DNA of 51,054 nucleotides from an uncultured Flavobacteriaceae bacterium (lineage in GTDB: Bacteria > Bacteroidota > Bacteroidia > Flavobacteriales > Flavobacteriaceae): NCBI GenBank assembly GCA_938088195.1, contig CALKEO010000016.1, positions 1 through 51,054 of the forward strand, read 5' to 3'. How positions within the stretch are numbered: the stretch's first letter is position 1; each line of letters opens with the position of its first letter. Positions 37,448 to 45,909 of the stretch are shown here, piece after piece. The position numbers were made by a program, and so were the translations under genes. The notes beneath the pieces are model-generated. The model was not told the DNA's origin. It made no database searches and saw only the letters and a list, made by a program, of their open reading frames with translations.

Positions 37448-37759
37448 TTAATTATTTAAAATCTCACCTTTCCATCCCATAATACCACCCTCTAAATTAA
37501 AAACATTTTCAAAACCAAATTGTTTCATTAGTTCACATGCCTGAAAGCTCCTTGCTCCTGACTTACAATAGACATGAATACAGCTTTCTTTTTTAAGCTT
37601 TTTTATTTCATCTAAAAAAAATTGTGAATCATAAATATTTAAATTAACAGAATTCCTTATGAAACCTTCTTTAAATTCTTCAGGAGTTCTAACATCTAAC
37701 ACAACACTATTTTTGGAATTTTTTATGGATTTAATCCATTTATTTTGTTTGAGATTCAT
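37448..37759 (-). CDS. Single-domain rhodanese-like protein
   Basis: 103 residues, one complete rhodanese domain: VVLDVRTPEEFKEGFIRNSVNLN and the active-site loop HVYCKSGARS with Cys65 as the persulfide-carrying residue, ending GGIMGWKGEI. Sulfur donor and acceptor are unknown; no signal peptide, so cytoplasmic. First gene of a unit with the PspC-like gene, preceded by a -7 box. Confidence 0.93.
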   Translation of the reverse strand: MNLKQNKWIKSIKNSKNSVVLDVRTPEEFKEGFIRNSVNLNIYDSQFFLDEIKKLKKESCIHVYCKSGARSFQACELMKQFGFENVFNLEGGIMGWKGEILNN

Positions 37760-37773
37760 ACTTTAAATAAAAT

Positions 37774-37781
37774 CAAATATA
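37774..37781 (-). promoter_or_regulatory. -7 promoter element for the rhodanese–PspC unit
   Basis: Reads TATATTTG on the minus strand, 14 nt before the rhodanese ATG. It points away from the trp promoter about 70 bp to its right. Confidence 0.5.
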
Positions 37782-37822
37782 TAGCACTAAATCTTTTAAA
37801 AAAAATTAAATTTATTTAAATA

Positions 37823-37854
37823 CTTGTAAACTAATAGTATGATTTATATATTTG
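37823..37854 (+). promoter_or_regulatory. Promoter of the trp operon
   Basis: -33-like CTTG (37823-37826, one mismatch to TTTG), a 20-nt spacer, and an exact -7 TATATTTG (37847-37854). Transcription would start at about 37858, giving a leader of about 130 nt before trpE. Confidence 0.68.
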
Positions 37855-37858
37855 ATTT

Positions 37859-37918
37859 ATGTTAAAAAATTTAATGTTTAATATTTGGTGGGTAATTAAT
37901 TATGATATCTCGCGATAG
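37859..37918 (+). CDS. trpL: trp leader peptide with tandem Trp codons
   Basis: A 19-codon ORF, MLKNLMFNIWWVINYDISR, ending in TAG at 37916-37918. The two adjacent TGG codons are at 37886-37891. Tryptophan is otherwise a rare codon, so a WW pair in so short an ORF directly before trp genes is the mark of a ribosome-mediated attenuator. The first ATG lies 4 nt after the -7 box, like the start codons of pyrE and idi, suggesting leaderless translation; an in-frame ATG at 37874 would give a 14-codon version. The stop codon lies inside the 5' arm of the antiterminator, so a ribosome that reaches it masks that arm. Confidence 0.82.
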   Translation: MLKNLMFNIWWVINYDISR

Positions 37919-37959
37919 ACCAATTAAATTATAAAAAAATATTTAGGCTTGTCTCGCGA
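37910..37959 (+). promoter_or_regulatory. Antiterminator structure of the trp attenuator
   Basis: TCGCGA (37910-37915) can pair with TCGCGA (37954-37959), and GAC (37918-37920) with GTC (37951-37953), a 9-bp helix with a 2-nt bulge. It uses bases of the terminator's 5' arm and loop, so both cannot form together. A ribosome stalled at the Trp codons leaves the 5' arm free, allowing this helix; one at the stop codon covers it. A possible alternative 5-bp helix (TTGGT 37885-37889 with ACCAA 37919-37923) would be the counterpart of the 1:2 pause hairpin. Confidence 0.72.
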
Positions 37960-37971
37960 CAGGCCTTTTTT
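37945..37971 (+). terminator. Attenuator terminator of the trp operon
   Basis: Stem AGGCTTGTC (37945-37953) / GACAGGCCT (37958-37966), 9 bp with one G·T pair, loop TCGC, followed by six Ts (37966-37971). A textbook Rho-independent terminator located 20 nt before the trpE start. Confidence 0.88.
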
Positions 37972-37990
37972 AATTTAAAGAATTGATAAA

Positions 37991-39385
37991 TTGTATAAAA
38001 TATTAACATCCGAAAAAAAACTATTAGCAGATACTTTGACACCTGTTAGTATTTATTTAAAAATAAGAGACAAGTTTTCGAACTCTCTTTTGTTGGAAAG
38101 TAGTGATTATGGTGCAAATGATAATAGTTTTGCTTATGTATGCTTTAACCCTATTGCTCACATATCTGTTAAAGAAAATATAATATCAAAATCTTTTCCT
38201 GATGGAGTTAAAGAGACTATTGAAATAAACAAAAATATTGATGTGGTTAAGCAAGTTGATGAATTTTGTAAATTATTTGAGTGCAAAAAAAATGACAAAA
38301 AATTTATTAATAATGGCGTTTTTGGATACATGAATTATGACTCAATAAAATACTTTGAAAATATAAATATCCAGTCAAAAAATAAAGACACAAATATACC
38401 TGACATATACTATGCTTTTTATTCAAATATAATTGTGATTAATGTTTTTAATAATGAGGCTAAACTATTTCATCACCGTTTTAATGAAAAAGAAAATTTG
38501 AATGATATATTAAATATTATTTTTTCAAATAATTCGTCTAAGTTTCCTTTTTCAAGAATCGGAGAATTAAACTCTAATATCAATGATAAACAATATGTTG
38601 ATCTTGTTAAAAAAGGAATTAAGCATTGTTACAGGGGAGATGTTTTTCAAATTGTTCTATCCAGAAGATTTAAACAAAAATTTAAGGGAGATGAGTTTAA
38701 TCTATACAGAGCATTGAGATCAGTAAACCCTTCTCCATATTTATTTTATTTTGATTATGGTAGTTATAAAATTTTCGGAAGTTCACCAGAAGCACAATTA
38801 GTTGTTAAAAAAAATAAAGCTGAAATTCATCCAATAGCAGGGACATTTAAAAGAACCGGAGATGATGTAGAAGATTCAAAAAAAGCTGAGAAACTTTCAA
38901 AAGATGATAAAGAAAATAGTGAGCATATGATGCTTGTTGACTTAGCTAGAAATGATTTAAGTAGAAATGGAAACGATGTAAAAGTAGAAAAAGATAGAGA
39001 GATTCAATTTTATTCTCACGTTATACATCTTGTTTCAAAAGTAACTGGAATTAAGAAAAATGGTTCATCTACTTTTCAAATTGCTGCTGATACATTTCCC
39101 GCTGGGACATTAACTGGTGCGCCAAAGCATAGGGCGATGCAATTAATTAACGAATATGAAAATTGTAATAGATCATTTTACGGAGGAGCAATTGGTTTCA
39201 TGGATTTTGAGGGGAATTTTAATCATGCGATAATAATTAGATCATTTCTAAGTAAAAACTATGAACTTTTATTTCAAGCTGGTGCTGGGATTGTTTCAAA
39301 ATCTATTCCGAAAAATGAATTACAAGAAATTTACAATAAACTTGGTGCATTAAACACCGCACTAGAAATTGCTGAAAAAATTTAA
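37991..39385 (+). CDS. trpE: Anthranilate synthase component I
   Basis: 464 residues. Makes anthranilate from chorismate with ammonia supplied by TrpG. The N-terminal domain has LADTLTPVSIYLKIRDKFSNSLLLESSD, with LLESSD being the tryptophan feedback-binding motif; the chorismate-binding C-domain has GDVFQIVLSRRF, IHPIAGTFKRTGDD, DLARNDLSRNG and GAPKHRAMQLI. The start is TTG at 37991, as no ATG is near and MYKILTSEKKLLADTLTPVS matches the family N-terminus. It begins 20 nt after the attenuator, giving double control by attenuation and probably feedback inhibition. Confidence 0.97.
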   Translation: MYKILTSEKKLLADTLTPVSIYLKIRDKFSNSLLLESSDYGANDNSFAYVCFNPIAHISVKENIISKSFPDGVKETIEINKNIDVVKQVDEFCKLFECKKNDKKFINNGVFGYMNYDSIKYFENINIQSKNKDTNIPDIYYAFYSNIIVINVFNNEAKLFHHRFNEKENLNDILNIIFSNNSSKFPFSRIGELNSNINDKQYVDLVKKGIKHCYRGDVFQIVLSRRFKQKFKGDEFNLYRALRSVNPSPYLFYFDYGSYKIFGSSPEAQLVVKKNKAEIHPIAGTFKRTGDDVEDSKKAEKLSKDDKENSEHMMLVDLARNDLSRNGNDVKVEKDREIQFYSHVIHLVSKVTGIKKNGSSTFQIAADTFPAGTLTGAPKHRAMQLINEYENCNRSFYGGAIGFMDFEGNFNHAIIIRSFLSKNYELLFQAGAGIVSKSIPKNELQEIYNKLGALNTALEIAEKI

Positions 39386-39387
39386 AT

Positions 39388-39951
39388 ATGAAAATTATAG
39401 TTATTGACAATTACGATTCTTTTACTTACAATTTAGTTCATTATTTCGAAGAACTTAAATGTGAGGTGACAGTCAAAAGAAATGATCAAGTCAATATAAA
39501 AGAAATTGAAAAGTTTGATAAAATTGTTCTTTCACCCGGTCCGGGAATTCCAAAAGAAGCTGGTCTTTTAAAAGAAATTATTTCATCTTTTTTTAATACA
39601 AAAAGTATTTTAGGGGTGTGTTTGGGACACCAAGCGATAGCTGAAGTTTTTGGCGCAGAACTTATCAATTTAAAAACAGTTTTTCATGGAGTTGCTAGTG
39701 ATATAAATATTATTAAAGAAGATCCTCTTTTTAATGATTTACCGAACCCTTTAAAAGTTGGACGTTACCATTCTTGGGTTGTTAAAGAACCACTTCCAGA
39801 TGATTTGGAGGCTTTAGCTTATGATCAAAACGGACAGATAATGGCATTTAAACATAAAACGTATAATTTAAGAGGAGTTCAATTTCATCCTGAATCTATA
39901 TTAACAGAACACGGAAAAGATCTTTTAAAAAATTGGTTAAAAATCAAATAA
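39388..39951 (+). CDS. trpG: Anthranilate synthase component II (glutamine amidotransferase)
   Basis: 187 residues, class I glutaminase. Nucleophile Cys78 in GVCLGHQAI and the His167/Glu169 pair in VQFHPESILTEHG; the oxyanion region SPGPGIPKEAG is at about 49-59. Stand-alone TrpG, not fused to TrpD. 2 nt after trpE, and its stop codon shares one base with the trpD start (TAATG). Could also serve PabB, as in some bacteria, but its place in the operon favours tryptophan. Confidence 0.96.
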   Translation: MKIIVIDNYDSFTYNLVHYFEELKCEVTVKRNDQVNIKEIEKFDKIVLSPGPGIPKEAGLLKEIISSFFNTKSILGVCLGHQAIAEVFGAELINLKTVFHGVASDINIIKEDPLFNDLPNPLKVGRYHSWVVKEPLPDDLEALAYDQNGQIMAFKHKTYNLRGVQFHPESILTEHGKDLLKNWLKIK

Positions 39952-40943
39952 TGAAAGATATATTAAATAAATTATTTGCTCATAAAACTCTAGACAGAGA
40001 AGAAGCTAAAAATATATTGCTTGAAATTTCTAGCGGGATGCATAATCATTCACATGTGACTTCCTTCTTAACTGTATATATGATTAGAAATATTACAGTT
40101 GAGGAGCTAGAAGGGTTTAGAGACGCCTTGATTGAGCTATGTATTTCAATTGATTTAAAAAAATACAATACGATTGATTTGTGTGGTACTGGGGGTGATA
40201 ATAAAGACACATTTAATATTTCAACACTATCTGCTTTTATTACTGCTGGAGCTGGAATAAAAGTTGCCAAACACGGAAACTATGGAGTTTCATCATCATG
40301 TGGATCAAGTAATGTATTAGAAAATTTAGGAATTAGATTTTCAAATGATCAAAGTTTTATAGAAAATTGTATTGAAAAAAGTGGTATATGTATTCTTCAT
40401 GCTCCTCTTTTTCATCCAGCAATGAAGCATGTTGCTCCAATAAGAAGAGAATTAGGATTAAAAACCTTCTTTAATATGTTGGGGCCATTAGTAAATCCCT
40501 CAACCCCTAACAATCAAATGGTTGGAGTTTATAGCTTAGAATTAGCTAGATTATACTCATATGTATTTCAAAAATCAAATAAAAATTTCTCAATCATTCA
40601 TTCTTTAGATGGTTATGATGAAGTATCTCTAACGGGAAATGTTAAAATCATTTCTAATAATTCCGAAAAAATATTCGAACCATCAGACTTTGATTTAAAT
40701 ATATTAAAACCTAAGTCTATAGTTGGAGGTAATTCAATTTCAGAATCCGCAAAAATTTTTATGAATATTTTAAATAATAAAGGATCTAGTTCACAAAATA
40801 ATGTTGTTTTAGTCAACTCTGGAATAGCCATTTCAACTGCCCAAAATATTAGTATTAGTGATGGAATTGAAAAAGCAAGAGAATCTTTGAAGTCCGGTAA
40901 AGCTTTAAATGCATTTAAAACTTTAAAAAAACTAAGTAAATAA
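39951..40943 (+). CDS. trpD: Anthranilate phosphoribosyltransferase
   Basis: 330 residues. Joins anthranilate to PRPP. The PRPP-binding CGTGGDNKDTFNIST is at about residues 77-91, KHGNYGVSSSCGSSNVLE binds anthranilate and PRPP, and HPAMKHVAPIRRELGLKTFFNMLGPL is the family signature. The chosen ATG at 39951 overlaps the trpG stop by one base; an upstream in-frame start inside trpG is rejected as not family-like. Confidence 0.96.
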   Translation: MKDILNKLFAHKTLDREEAKNILLEISSGMHNHSHVTSFLTVYMIRNITVEELEGFRDALIELCISIDLKKYNTIDLCGTGGDNKDTFNISTLSAFITAGAGIKVAKHGNYGVSSSCGSSNVLENLGIRFSNDQSFIENCIEKSGICILHAPLFHPAMKHVAPIRRELGLKTFFNMLGPLVNPSTPNNQMVGVYSLELARLYSYVFQKSNKNFSIIHSLDGYDEVSLTGNVKIISNNSEKIFEPSDFDLNILKPKSIVGGNSISESAKIFMNILNNKGSSSQNNVVLVNSGIAISTAQNISISDGIEKARESLKSGKALNAFKTLKKLSK

Positions 40944-41728
40944 TGAGCATTTTAAATCAAATAATTGAAACTAAAAAAACTGAAATAGAATTAAATAAAA
41001 AAAATAATTCATTTTCGGATCTTGAAAGACTAAAAGGGTTTAGTAGACCTGTAAATTCTCTATCACGAAGTCTTCAAATTTGTAAGTTTGGAATCATTTC
41101 AGAATTTAAAAGAAAATCCCCTTCAAAATCAATTATTAATAAAAACTCAAATGTTAATGATGTAGTAAAAGGATATGAGAATGCAGGTGCTAGTGGAATT
41201 TCTATTTTGACTGATGAACAATATTTTGGAGGATCCTCTAAAGATTTAATAATTGCCAGAGAAAACACTAAACTTCCGGTTTTAAGAAAAGAATTTATTA
41301 TAGATGAATATCAAATAATTGAAGCAAAAGGATTAGGAGCAGACGCAATTCTTTTAATAGCATCATGTTTAAAAAAAGAATCCATAAAATCCCTAAGTCA
41401 ATTTGCCAAAAGCTTAGGGCTAGAAGTGTTAATAGAAATTCATAATCTCAATGAATTAAATAAGTGTTTGATTGATTCCATAGATATTATTGGTGTTAAT
41501 AATAGGAATCTAAAAACATTTGAAGTGAATATCCAAACTAGTAAAGATTTAGTGGAATTTATTCCAAAAGAATTTGTTAAAATATCTGAAAGTGGACTTA
41601 CCAGTAAGAAAGAAATAATAGAACTTATTGATTATGGATTTGAAGGTTTTTTAATGGGTGAAAATTTTATGAAAGAAAAAAATCCTGGGAAAGCAGCAGA
41701 TAATTTCATTAATAATTTAAAAAGTTAG
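40943..41728 (+). CDS. trpC: Indole-3-glycerol-phosphate synthase
   Basis: 261 residues, TIM barrel. Key motifs: EFKRKSPSKSIIN (phosphate and catalytic Lys), GASGISILTDEQYFGGS, PVLRKEFIIDEYQIIEAKGLGADAILL, GVNNRNLKTFEV and the C-terminal SESGLTSKKE. One-base overlap with trpD, 4 nt before trpF. Not fused to trpF. Confidence 0.97.
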   Translation: MSILNQIIETKKTEIELNKKNNSFSDLERLKGFSRPVNSLSRSLQICKFGIISEFKRKSPSKSIINKNSNVNDVVKGYENAGASGISILTDEQYFGGSSKDLIIARENTKLPVLRKEFIIDEYQIIEAKGLGADAILLIASCLKKESIKSLSQFAKSLGLEVLIEIHNLNELNKCLIDSIDIIGVNNRNLKTFEVNIQTSKDLVEFIPKEFVKISESGLTSKKEIIELIDYGFEGFLMGENFMKEKNPGKAADNFINNLKS

Positions 41729-41732
41729 TAAA

Positions 41733-42344
41733 ATGAAATTGAAAATTTGTGGAATGAAGTTTGAAAATAATATTTCTGAAATAAATAATTTAAATCCAGA
41801 TTTTATGGGTTTTATTTTCTGGCCAAATTCTAAAAGGTTTTTCAATGAGAAAACAATTGATATTTCTAATACAATAAAAAAAGTTGGGGTTTTTGTCAAT
41901 CAAGATTATGACTTAATTATAAATAAAATCAATCAATTTAATCTTGATTTTGTTCAATTACATGGTAATGAAAGCTCTGAATTTTGTAATAAAATCAAAG
42001 CTCATTGTAAAGTAATTAAAGTATTTAGTATTGGGAAAGAATTCGATTTTAAAAAATTATATTTATTTGAAAAAGTTTGCGACTATTTTTTGTTTGATAC
42101 CAAAGGGGAGTCATATGGTGGAAATGGGATTAAATTTGATTGGAAAATTCTAAAAAAATATAATTCAAAAAAACCCTTTTTGTTAAGCGGCGGCATTGAT
42201 ATTCTTGATTTTCCAGATTTACTAAACATTCAAAAACTAAAAATTCCTTTGTTAGGAATTGACATCAACAGTAAATTTGAAACTAAGCCTGGATTAAAAG
42301 ATTATAAAAAAGTTAATGAACTAATAAATAAAATGAAAAAATGA
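41733..42344 (+). CDS. trpF: Phosphoribosylanthranilate isomerase
   Basis: 203 residues. KICGMKFENN contains the catalytic cysteine Cys6, the GFIFWPNSKRF motif binds phosphate, VQLHGNESSEFC follows, and LFDTKGESYGGNGIKFDW has the catalytic Asp. The C-terminal GIDINSKFETKPGLKD is typical (the usual DLNSGVE is slightly changed). Overlaps trpB by 4 nt (ATGA). Confidence 0.95.
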   Translation: MKLKICGMKFENNISEINNLNPDFMGFIFWPNSKRFFNEKTIDISNTIKKVGVFVNQDYDLIINKINQFNLDFVQLHGNESSEFCNKIKAHCKVIKVFSIGKEFDFKKLYLFEKVCDYFLFDTKGESYGGNGIKFDWKILKKYNSKKPFLLSGGIDILDFPDLLNIQKLKIPLLGIDINSKFETKPGLKDYKKVNELINKMKK

Positions 42345-43528
42345 AAATTTCTTATAATGTAGATAAAAATGGGTTTTATGGTGACTTTGGCGGAGCATTT
42401 ATCCCAGAAATGATGCATGCTAATATTGAAGAACTTAAATCTAAATATTTAAAAATATCATCTGAAATAAGTTTTAAAAAAGAATTCGATGACTTGTTAG
42501 AAAAATATGTAGGAAGGCCTACCCCACTTTATTACGCAAAAAGACTTTCTAAAAAATATAATACGAAAGTTTATTTAAAAAGAGAAGATTTATGTCATAC
42601 TGGAGCTCATAAAATAAACAATACAATAGGACAAATACTACTTGCAAAAAAATTGGGTAAAACTAGAATAATTGCTGAAACAGGCGCTGGACAACATGGA
42701 GTTGCTACTGCTACTGTATGTGCGCTTATGGGGATTAAATGTATTATTTATATGGGAGAGGTTGATATATCTAGACAGGCTCCAAACGTTGCTAGAATGA
42801 AAATGTTAGGTGCAGAAGTCAAGCCTGCAATTTCAGGAAGTAAAACCCTAAAAGATGCCACTAACGAAGCTATTAGGGATTGGATAAATAATCCAGTTGA
42901 CACACATTATATCATAGGTTCAGTCGTGGGGCCCCACCCCTATCCTGATATGGTTGCTAGGTTTCAATCTGTAATTGGAAATGAAGTTAAAAAACAATTA
43001 AAAAAAGTTGAGGGAAATGAAAATCCTAATTATGTTATAGCATGTGTTGGAGGCGGAAGCAATGCAGCTGGTATATTTTACCCTTACTTAGATAATGACA
43101 AAGTCAAAATAATTTGTGTTGAGGCAGCAGGTAAAGGAATAAAATCTGGAGAAAGTGCAGCCACTTCAGTTTTAGGTAAAGAAGGAATCATTCATGGTTC
43201 TAAAACCTTATTAATGCAAACTAAGGATGGACAAATAACAGAGCCTTATTCCATTTCTGCTGGACTTGATTATCCAGGAGTTGGTCCAATGCATGCTAAT
43301 TTGTATAAAACGGGTAGAGGAAAGTTTATTTCAATTGAAGATAAGGATGCCATGGAATGGGGGTTGATTTTATCCCGAATGGAAGGGATTATTCCTGCAA
43401 TAGAAACCTCTCATGCTTTTGCAGTTCTTGATAAAATGAAATTTAAAAAAACTGATGTCATTGTTTTTAATTGCTCTGGAAGAGGAGATAAAGACTTGGA
43501 CACCTACATTGAGTATTTTAAATTATGA
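42341..43528 (+). CDS. trpB: Tryptophan synthase beta chain
   Basis: 395 residues. Uses PLP to join indole and serine. Lys91 in HTGAHKINN is the PLP lysine; GAGQHGVATATVCALMG, the VGGGSNAAG phosphate loop and ISAGLDYPGVGPMH are TrpB1-type motifs. Full length. Its natural partner trpA is not next: a sulfatase gene intervenes, with a 76-nt gap after trpB. Confidence 0.98.
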   Translation: MKISYNVDKNGFYGDFGGAFIPEMMHANIEELKSKYLKISSEISFKKEFDDLLEKYVGRPTPLYYAKRLSKKYNTKVYLKREDLCHTGAHKINNTIGQILLAKKLGKTRIIAETGAGQHGVATATVCALMGIKCIIYMGEVDISRQAPNVARMKMLGAEVKPAISGSKTLKDATNEAIRDWINNPVDTHYIIGSVVGPHPYPDMVARFQSVIGNEVKKQLKKVEGNENPNYVIACVGGGSNAAGIFYPYLDNDKVKIICVEAAGKGIKSGESAATSVLGKEGIIHGSKTLLMQTKDGQITEPYSISAGLDYPGVGPMHANLYKTGRGKFISIEDKDAMEWGLILSRMEGIIPAIETSHAFAVLDKMKFKKTDVIVFNCSGRGDKDLDTYIEYFKL

Positions 43529-43604
43529 TTCATTAATACATAATTATACCTATTTAACATTCAATCAAAATATTACATTTATTATATTTAAATAAAAAAC
43601 ACAA

Positions 43605-45152
43605 ATGAAATCAATTAAAATTATTTTACAAGTATTTAGTATTATTATATTATTTGGATGCAATAAAGAGATTCCAGTAGATAAAAATGAGAAACTTAAT
43701 GTATTGTTTATAATGACAGATGATCTTAATTGTGATTTAGGTTCATACGGACACCCACAAGTAATAAGTCCTAATATTGACAAGCTAGCTAGTCAAGGTG
43801 TTCTTTTTGAAAATGCTCATAATCAATACCCTCTTTGCGGGCCCTCAAGAGCTTCTTTTATGACTAGTATGTATTCTGATCAAACTATGCACACCACACT
43901 TAATGTGGATATCAGAACTACAACTCCTGATGTTGTTACCCTTGGACAAAGATTTAGGCAGCAAAATTACAGATCAGTAAGAATTGGAAAAATATTTCAT
44001 TACGACAATCCAGGGTCTATAGGCAGTTCAAGTTCAGATGATATTTATACTTGGGATTACACAATAAATCCATGGGGAAGAGATAAAGAGGAGGAGTATA
44101 AAATAAATACATTGAGTGAAAGACAATATGGCGGAACCTTAAGTTGGATGGAGGCTGATGGTTTTGATGAGGAACAAACTGATGGAATAGTAGCTAAAGA
44201 AGCAGTTGAACAACTTGAAAAATTTTCAAAAAATGGACAAAATTTCTTTTTAGCTGTCGGATTTTTTAAACCACACACACCATTTGTTGCTCCAAAAAAA
44301 TATTTTGATTTATATGAAAAAGATGATATGATTATTCCCTACACTGGAATTAGTGAAGATTATTTAAAATCAATTCCTCTACCAGCAGCAAAATCTATAA
44401 GGAACAAAAAAGATCAAATTAAATTAAATTTAAAATCTAATAAAGAATTGTCACAAGAAATTAAAGAAGCTTATTATGCTACAATTTCTTTTATGGACGC
44501 CCAAATTGGAAGAGTTCTTGATAAATTAAAAGAAACAGGCCTAGATAAAAATACGATTATTGTCTTTTCATCAGATCATGGTTATCATTTGGGAGAACAT
44601 GGGTATTGGCAAAAACAAACTCTATTTGACAATGCCACTAGAGTTCCTTTAATTTTTTCTGGTCCTGGAATTGAAAAAGGTAAAAAAAGCAACTCACCAG
44701 TAGAAATGATTGATATTTATCCAACACTAATGGAACTTACTGGGATTGATTCTCCAGATCATGTAGTTGGTAAAAGTTTAATGCCAGTATTTAAAGACTC
44801 TAATTTTAAAATAAGAAACAGTGCTTTAACAAGATGGAAAAATGGATACTCAATTAAATCAGAAAAATATAGACTCACCAAATGGGGAGAAAATGGTCAG
44901 TTAGGTTATGAACTTTATGATCATAGTAATGATAAAGAAGAATTAGTAAACCTTGCAAAAAATGAAGATTATTCACAAGTTTTAGATTCTTTAAAAAAGG
45001 AAATTAATGTAAGAATTGCTGATGCCAGACTTAAACCTAAAGGACTTGGTAGACAGTTTGAGCAACGGCCATACAACAGAATAAAATATACGCCTGGTGA
45101 TTTGTATGATAAAGATGGTAAAAGAATATATTTGAAACCCTCGAATGAATAG
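43605..45152 (+). CDS. Sulfatase lipoprotein, iduronate-2-sulfatase-like, inside the trp operon
   Basis: 515 residues. Lipoprotein signal ending ILFGC (Cys19). The sulfatase signature CGPSR has Cys78 as the residue to be converted to formylglycine; Asp39/Asp40, Arg82, Lys129/His132 (IGKIFHY), His224 (FFKPHTPF) and Asp324/His325 (SSDHGYHLGEHG) supply the calcium and active site. The layout and the GKIFH, KPHTPF and SDHGYHLGEHGYWQK segments match the iduronate-2-sulfatase branch, whose marine relatives remove sulfate from algal polysaccharides. Substrate unproven. It lies between trpB and trpA and overlaps the trpA start by 8 nt. A near-consensus -7 box (TATATTTA, 43583-43590) may give it an extra promoter. 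No maturase gene is in the window. Confidence 0.93.
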   Translation: MKSIKIILQVFSIIILFGCNKEIPVDKNEKLNVLFIMTDDLNCDLGSYGHPQVISPNIDKLASQGVLFENAHNQYPLCGPSRASFMTSMYSDQTMHTTLNVDIRTTTPDVVTLGQRFRQQNYRSVRIGKIFHYDNPGSIGSSSSDDIYTWDYTINPWGRDKEEEYKINTLSERQYGGTLSWMEADGFDEEQTDGIVAKEAVEQLEKFSKNGQNFFLAVGFFKPHTPFVAPKKYFDLYEKDDMIIPYTGISEDYLKSIPLPAAKSIRNKKDQIKLNLKSNKELSQEIKEAYYATISFMDAQIGRVLDKLKETGLDKNTIIVFSSDHGYHLGEHGYWQKQTLFDNATRVPLIFSGPGIEKGKKSNSPVEMIDIYPTLMELTGIDSPDHVVGKSLMPVFKDSNFKIRNSALTRWKNGYSIKSEKYRLTKWGENGQLGYELYDHSNDKEELVNLAKNEDYSQVLDSLKKEINVRIADARLKPKGLGRQFEQRPYNRIKYTPGDLYDKDGKRIYLKPSNE

Positions 45153-45909
45153 AATTAATAAAGTTTTAAAAAATAAAAGAGATATACTGTCCATATATTT
45201 CACCGCAGGTTTTCCTAATATTTCAGATACTACCACAATTATAAAAAATTTGGATAATTGTGGTGTAGATATGGTTGAAATTGGATTGCCTTTTAGTGAC
45301 CCTTTAGCCGATGGACCTACTATTCAAAAAAGTTCAACACAAGCTTTAAATAATGGAATGACTACTAAAAAATTGTTTGAACAACTTAAAGGGTTGAGAA
45401 AAGAAACTAATATTCCTCTAATAATAATGGGGTATTTCAATCCAATAATGCAGTATGGTGTTGAGTCTTTTTGCAAAGACTGTGAGATTGCAGGAATAGA
45501 TGGATTAATAATACCAGATTTGCCAGTTGAGATTTATTGTGATAATTACAAAACAGTTTTTGAAAAACATAATCTACTAAATATGTTTTTAATAACTCCT
45601 CAAACATCGAATAAAAGAATACGATTTATCGATAAGATTTCTAACGGCTTTATTTATATGGTTAGTAGTTTCAGTATTACAGGAACAGTTAATTCTTTTA
45701 AAAAAGAACAAACAAAATACTTTGAAAGAATAAATAAAATGAATTTAAGCTCTCCACTAATAATTGGATTTGGAATAAGTAACAGACAAACATATCTTGA
45801 TGCAATTAAAAACAGTAATGGTGCGATTATAGGTTCAGCATTTATAAAACACTTAAAAAAATATGGTGTGGGTAAAGTGAGTGATTTTATAAATAAAATA
45901 AGAAATTAA
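45145..45909 (+). CDS. trpA: Tryptophan synthase alpha chain
   Basis: 254 residues. Cleaves indole-3-glycerol phosphate and passes indole to TrpB. Catalytic Glu45 (MVEIGLPFSDP) and Asp56 (LADGP) are present, as are GYFNPIMQYG, LIIPDLPVE and GFGISNRQTY. Starts inside the last codons of the sulfatase gene, so its translation is likely coupled to that gene rather than to trpB. Its stop directly abuts the convergent yaaA stop, leaving no room for a terminator. Confidence 0.97.
   Translation: MNRINKVLKNKRDILSIYFTAGFPNISDTTTIIKNLDNCGVDMVEIGLPFSDPLADGPTIQKSSTQALNNGMTTKKLFEQLKGLRKETNIPLIIMGYFNPIMQYGVESFCKDCEIAGIDGLIIPDLPVEIYCDNYKTVFEKHNLLNMFLITPQTSNKRIRFIDKISNGFIYMVSSFSITGTVNSFKKEQTKYFERINKMNLSSPLIIGFGISNRQTYLDAIKNSNGAIIGSAFIKHLKKYGVGKVSDFINKIRN

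Follow-up and report, generated by a model that had tools for sequence, protein, structure and literature searches.

A probable ribosome-mediated attenuator with a predicted leaderless leader ORF precedes the trp operon of an uncultured Flavobacteriaceae bacterium

The DNA analysed here, referred to as the window, is a stretch of 51,054 nucleotides from an uncultured Flavobacteriaceae bacterium and carries a trp operon on the plus strand. The first regulated gene is trpE (anthranilate synthase I; 37991-39385; PF00425 and PF04715), which is read from a TTG start and is followed at 39388-45909 by the open reading frames of trpG, trpD, trpC, trpF, trpB, a sulfatase gene and trpA. The trpG, trpA and sulfatase genes were identified by Pfam, and trpD, trpC, trpF and trpB were named from their sequence and order. 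The sulfatase gene (43605-45152; PF00884, with an apparent lipoprotein signal) lies between trpB and trpA. This insertion is common to the close relatives L111, L112 and L113, whereas in the more distant genus members L114, L115, L118 and L119 the gap between trpB and trpA is just 5-8 nt; in the window, the sulfatase gene would fall under the control of the Trp attenuator described below. TrpR (PF01371) was not found in the organism's own genome, the assembly of which is about 80% complete. The named relatives closest by TrpE are marine, uncultured Flavobacteriaceae, one of which is a MAG with the label BACL29.

The region upstream of trpE contains a compact series of elements, all on the plus strand. 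A -33-like TTG (37824-37826) lies 20 nt upstream of a sigma-A(Bfr)-type -7 box, TATATTTG (37847-37854), and the spacing of these two elements is 19-20 nt in 17/17 genus members. Direct reading of the sequence gives a leader ORF (trpL) from ATG at 37859 to TAG at 37916-37918, encoding the 19-aa peptide MLKNLMFNIWWVINYDISR, with tandem Trp codons (TGG TGG) at 37886-37891 as the proposed stall site. An internal ATG at 37874 would yield a 14-aa peptide; this start was rejected because the nearest relatives have other codons there (AGG in L002 and AAA in L003), which leaves 37859 as the likely start. Constrained folding and an arm-swap comparison place the 5' arm of an antiterminator (region 2) at 37910-37920, where it includes the leader stop codon, and its 3' arm (region 3) is predicted by folding at 37951-37959, with 37910-37915 and 37918-37920 pairing with 37951-37959. 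Region 3 overlaps an intrinsic terminator (37945-37971) that folds into a 9-bp stem (37945-37953 with 37958-37966) around a UCGC loop (37954-37957) and ends in six T (37966-37971). The first-pass annotation had proposed the -7 promoter, an ORF of 14-19 codons with adjacent TGG codons and a stop codon inside the antiterminator arm, and each of these was confirmed where it had been placed. Its 9-bp terminator with six Ts likewise stood, but the distance to trpE is 19 nt from the end of the T run to the TTG start, not 20 nt, so that its coordinates were correct to within one base.

To assess conservation, TrpE was searched in 60 relatives and then in 296 genomes of the phylum, which gave 109 upstream regions. 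A short ORF with WW or WWW (W-x-W at a few loci) precedes trpE in 40/41 regions from the relatives and in 66/68 of those added from other genomes of the phylum. A scan of named genomes, comprising Flavobacteriaceae such as Maribacter, Salegentibacter, Allomuricauda and Flavobacterium and overlapping slightly with the other two sets, found the leader at 70/70 trpE loci, 62 of them with the leader within 420 nt and eight with it behind an inserted small gene. Under a strict ATG requirement, WW leaders occur in 98/108 regions and in 15/2160 dinucleotide shuffles, and WWW leaders in 77/108 and 1/2160, respectively. Across Bacteroidia, a short WW/WWW ORF preceding a terminator is present in nearly all trpE upstream regions, as compared with less than 1% of shuffles. 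Within the genus, the ATG and the tandem Trp codons are kept in all 17 members (9/3400 shuffles contain a WW leader), and the conservation of these codons that the first-pass annotation had suggested looking for in related flavobacteria is thus borne out. The leader of the window has two Trp codons, and most relatives have three. In Flavobacteriales, the Trp run typically begins 8-9 codons past the ATG, and about 30-40 nt separate the stop codon from the terminator. The stop codon lies within or next to region 2 also in relatives with a different sequence. The rest of the peptide, beyond its start, Trp run and stop region, differs freely between leaders, including those of genus members. No leader was found upstream of trpE at L091, and at L100 trpB directly precedes trpE, with no leader.

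Several loci depart from this common arrangement. Upstream of a second trpE in one genome (L041, G020:C77), a single Trp codon is found (TGG TAT for TGG TGG), with antiterminator and terminator apparently intact; a different contig of the same genome carries a normal trpE, and L041 may be a contaminant or a duplicate. Two WWW leader ORFs in series, each with its own terminator, precede trpE at L036 and L038 (genomes G052 and G037) and are apparently tandem ribosome-mediated attenuators. At L130, L131, L137, L139, L140, L163, L172 and L181, mostly from Allomuricauda and Flagellimonas, a gene of 94-101 aa, named GIY-YIG-like by sequence resemblance, is inserted between attenuator and trpE and starts about 330-390 nt upstream of the latter.

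The antiterminator covaries across these leaders. In the arm-swap comparison, each region 2 was paired in silico either with its own region 3 or with the region 3 of others. Own arms paired at -10.96 kcal/mol and swapped arms at -9.33 kcal/mol within the genus, and at -15.22 and -10.93 kcal/mol in the rest of the class; 0/2000 permutations were as good in either group, a count that is not a probability because the sequences are related rather than independent. Own arms were also better than swapped arms among other Flavobacteriales, where 0/2000 permutations reached the mean. A single case from the same genus illustrates the compensation in the stems that the first-pass annotation had suggested looking for: the UCGCGA/UCGCGA pairing of the window is replaced in L005 by UCGUGA with UCACGA, a compensated double change. 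Since the 3' side of this change lies within the terminator loop, the terminator does not explain the compensation. Most other flavobacteria likewise have UCGUGA, the UGA of which is often the leader stop, opposite UCACGA in the loop.

Folding of the leader RNA had also been put forward as a check. With the RNA ending at region 3 and a ribosome placed over the Trp codons in the model, the best fold was the 2:3 antiterminator (-11.2 kcal/mol); when the ribosome was modelled at the stop codon, the sole fold was the 3:4 terminator (-14.0 kcal/mol). The stability of the whole region is just moderately above that of dinucleotide shuffles (z -2.1, with 4/200 shuffles equally good), and the case therefore rests on the comparative evidence. 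In the full-length leader at equilibrium, the terminator (-14.9 kcal/mol) is more stable than the antiterminator, even with a ribosome at the Trp codons. A switch would therefore have to depend on the order of synthesis, a kinetic requirement that is generally assumed for attenuators.

The promoter bears on how the leader would be translated. The TAnnTTTG box of Flavobacterium spans -12 to -5 from the transcription start (PMC9723704, PMC6847099), and with the same spacing, transcription in the window is predicted to begin at 37859, on the first base of the leader ATG. An exact TAnnTTTG is present in 88/101 leaders. Between the box and the ATG lie 4 nt in 12/17 members of the genus, 4-7 nt in 16/17 and 2 nt in the remaining one, these members being related to one another; the gap is at most 10 nt in 56/88 leaders with an exact box, and class-wide the gaps form two groups of about 4-10 nt and 16-20 nt. 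In F. psychrophilum, just 5.5% of mRNAs with mapped starts are leaderless (PMC9723704), and because such mRNAs are rare there, the predicted leaderless start looks selected. The absence of a Shine-Dalgarno sequence is normal for Bacteroidota (PMC6847099). The suggestion of the first-pass annotation that this leader works without a Shine-Dalgarno sequence and is possibly leaderless fits these observations, and the leader mRNA of the window is likely to be leaderless, starting on the A of the ATG. For the genus and much of the class, we put the chances of trp attenuation operating on leaderless leader mRNAs at about even.

Leaders of this kind are already catalogued. The family RF01692 (Bacteroid-trp, 'Bacteroidete tryptophan peptide leader RNA') was described in 2010 by Weinberg et al. 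(PMC2864571), and the rarity of such attenuators outside Proteobacteria implied by the first-pass annotation was overstated, the element being common to the class. RF01692 matches 4/20 sampled relatives. Positions 37750-38050 of the window give no hit to this model at E<=10 and so fall below the gathering threshold of 49 bits, whereas the genus members L014, L015 and L016 score 57-61 bits at the same position. The copy in the window shares with Bacteroid-trp the phylum, the gene and the order of elements, from a leader ORF rich in Trp through a stop codon placed within an antiterminator arm to the terminator, and in its position and layout before trpE it is orthologous to, and continuous with, the members that do score. 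It differs in having two rather than three Trp codons, UCGCGA instead of UCGUGA/UCACGA, a very AT-rich sequence and a predicted 5' UTR of zero length. Judged by sequence and position, it is an orthologous but diverged member below the reach of the RF01692 model. Low-scoring matches of other Rfam families over the leader (rli60, tsr26 and others) were set aside as chance, being far below their gathering scores.

Comparison with better-known systems places the element further. The E. coli trp leader (trpL attenuator) likewise has tandem Trp codons, 1:2/2:3/3:4 alternatives and an intrinsic terminator before trpE; the window, unlike E. coli, has no Shine-Dalgarno sequence, a TAnnTTTG promoter, a predicted leaderless start and no TrpR found in its genome, and the Rfam trp_leader (E. 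coli-type) covariance model has no match in the window. Sinorhizobium meliloti trpLE(G) resembles the window in its transcript, which starts at the ATG of the leader ORF, so that a leaderless trp leader is already known, and in trp attenuation without transcription repression (PMC7298713). It differs in phylum and in the single Trp codon of its 14-aa peptide; trans functions are reported for its peTrpL and rnTrpL. Flavobacterium psychrophilum belongs to the same family as the window but to another genus. Bacteroid-trp has been noted ahead of its trp operon (PMC6414381), and its amino-acid operons show signs of being preceded by leader-peptide attenuators (PMC9723704), the same mechanism as proposed here, drawn from transcriptome and structure prediction.

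Other amino-acid leaders were sought in the genome of the window via the hisG, homoserine dehydrogenase, ilvD and pheA loci. Three were found, each followed by a terminator-like hairpin: MKFNRNNHHHLNILKRAM (HHH) before hisG (L190, 1222-1278), MKRNYYFQNFYFFFYYEVKKGLLYM (FYFFFYY) before pheA (L193, minus strand, about 1353) and MLQTKLYILLLLN (ILLLL) before ilvD (L192, minus strand, about 1270). No Thr/Ile leader was seen within the 1.5 kb read on each side of the homoserine dehydrogenase match, which is a domain inside a long gene.

Three features expected of ribosome-mediated attenuators are found at the locus, namely a short translatable ORF in which codons for the regulated amino acid stand in tandem, an intrinsic terminator between this ORF and the first structural gene, and an antiterminator that by geometry, constrained folds and arm-swap covariation is mutually exclusive with the terminator, left open by a ribosome at the Trp codons and masked by one at the stop codon. 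We propose that RNA polymerase would start at, or within 1 nt of, the leader ATG, and that the emerging 5' end would be bound by a ribosome with no Shine-Dalgarno sequence to guide it. Under a shortage of charged tRNA-Trp, this ribosome would stall at the two UGG codons, leaving region 2 free to pair with region 3, so that the terminator could not form and trpE would be transcribed. When Trp is plentiful, the ribosome would reach the UAG inside region 2 and cover it, region 3 would pair with region 4 (37958-37966), and polymerase would stop at the six U. The E. coli-like logic that the first-pass annotation had seen here is supported on three counts: the tandem Trp codons are conserved, the antiterminator covaries, and the stop codon keeps its position. 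We give a probability of about 0.94 to the reading of this element as a diverged Bacteroid-trp leader that controls the trp operon by ribosome-mediated transcription attenuation.

Other explanations can be weighed against the same evidence. A constitutive promoter-proximal terminator beside a chance WW ORF, its hairpin setting a basal level with no Trp-dependent switch, would suit the modest folding z-score and the terminator being the more stable fold, but it is very unlikely given a WW leader throughout the genus and in so few shuffles, the antiterminator covariation, and a stop codon kept in or beside region 2 as the sequence around it changes. Trp operons of Firmicutes are regulated by TRAP and T-box mechanisms, and a riboswitch, T-box or RNA-binding protein could in principle sense Trp here as well, the leader ORF being incidental. 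This is the least probable of the alternatives: the window has no T-box or riboswitch match, what is conserved is an in-frame run of Trp codons rather than an aptamer, and the His, Phe/Tyr and Leu leaders of the same genome carry the codons of their own amino acids.

There is a slim chance, somewhat greater than that of either alternative above, that attenuation in cis is accompanied by a trans function of the leader peptide or of the terminated leader RNA. The leaderless layout resembles that of S. meliloti trpL, whose peTrpL and rnTrpL are reported to act in this way (PMC7298713), but the free variation of the peptide outside its start, Trp run and stop region suggests no function for the peptide itself.

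Taken together, the ribosome-mediated attenuator before trpE appears real, well conserved and ordinary for its phylum, and as a mechanism it is well supported by the comparative sequence evidence. What is new is confined to a member missed by the current RF01692 model and to a likely leaderless example. RF01692 covers just part of a family that is seemingly close to universal in the trpE-first operons of the class. Classic attenuation needs a ribosome close behind RNA polymerase. Bacteroidia do not initiate at Shine-Dalgarno sites, and the near-universal presence of an attenuator before their trpE genes implies that ribosome-polymerase coupling works in them too, in many cases apparently on transcripts with little or no 5' UTR. 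If this is true, initiation on a bare 5' end, rather than at a Shine-Dalgarno site, would time the ribosome relative to polymerase.
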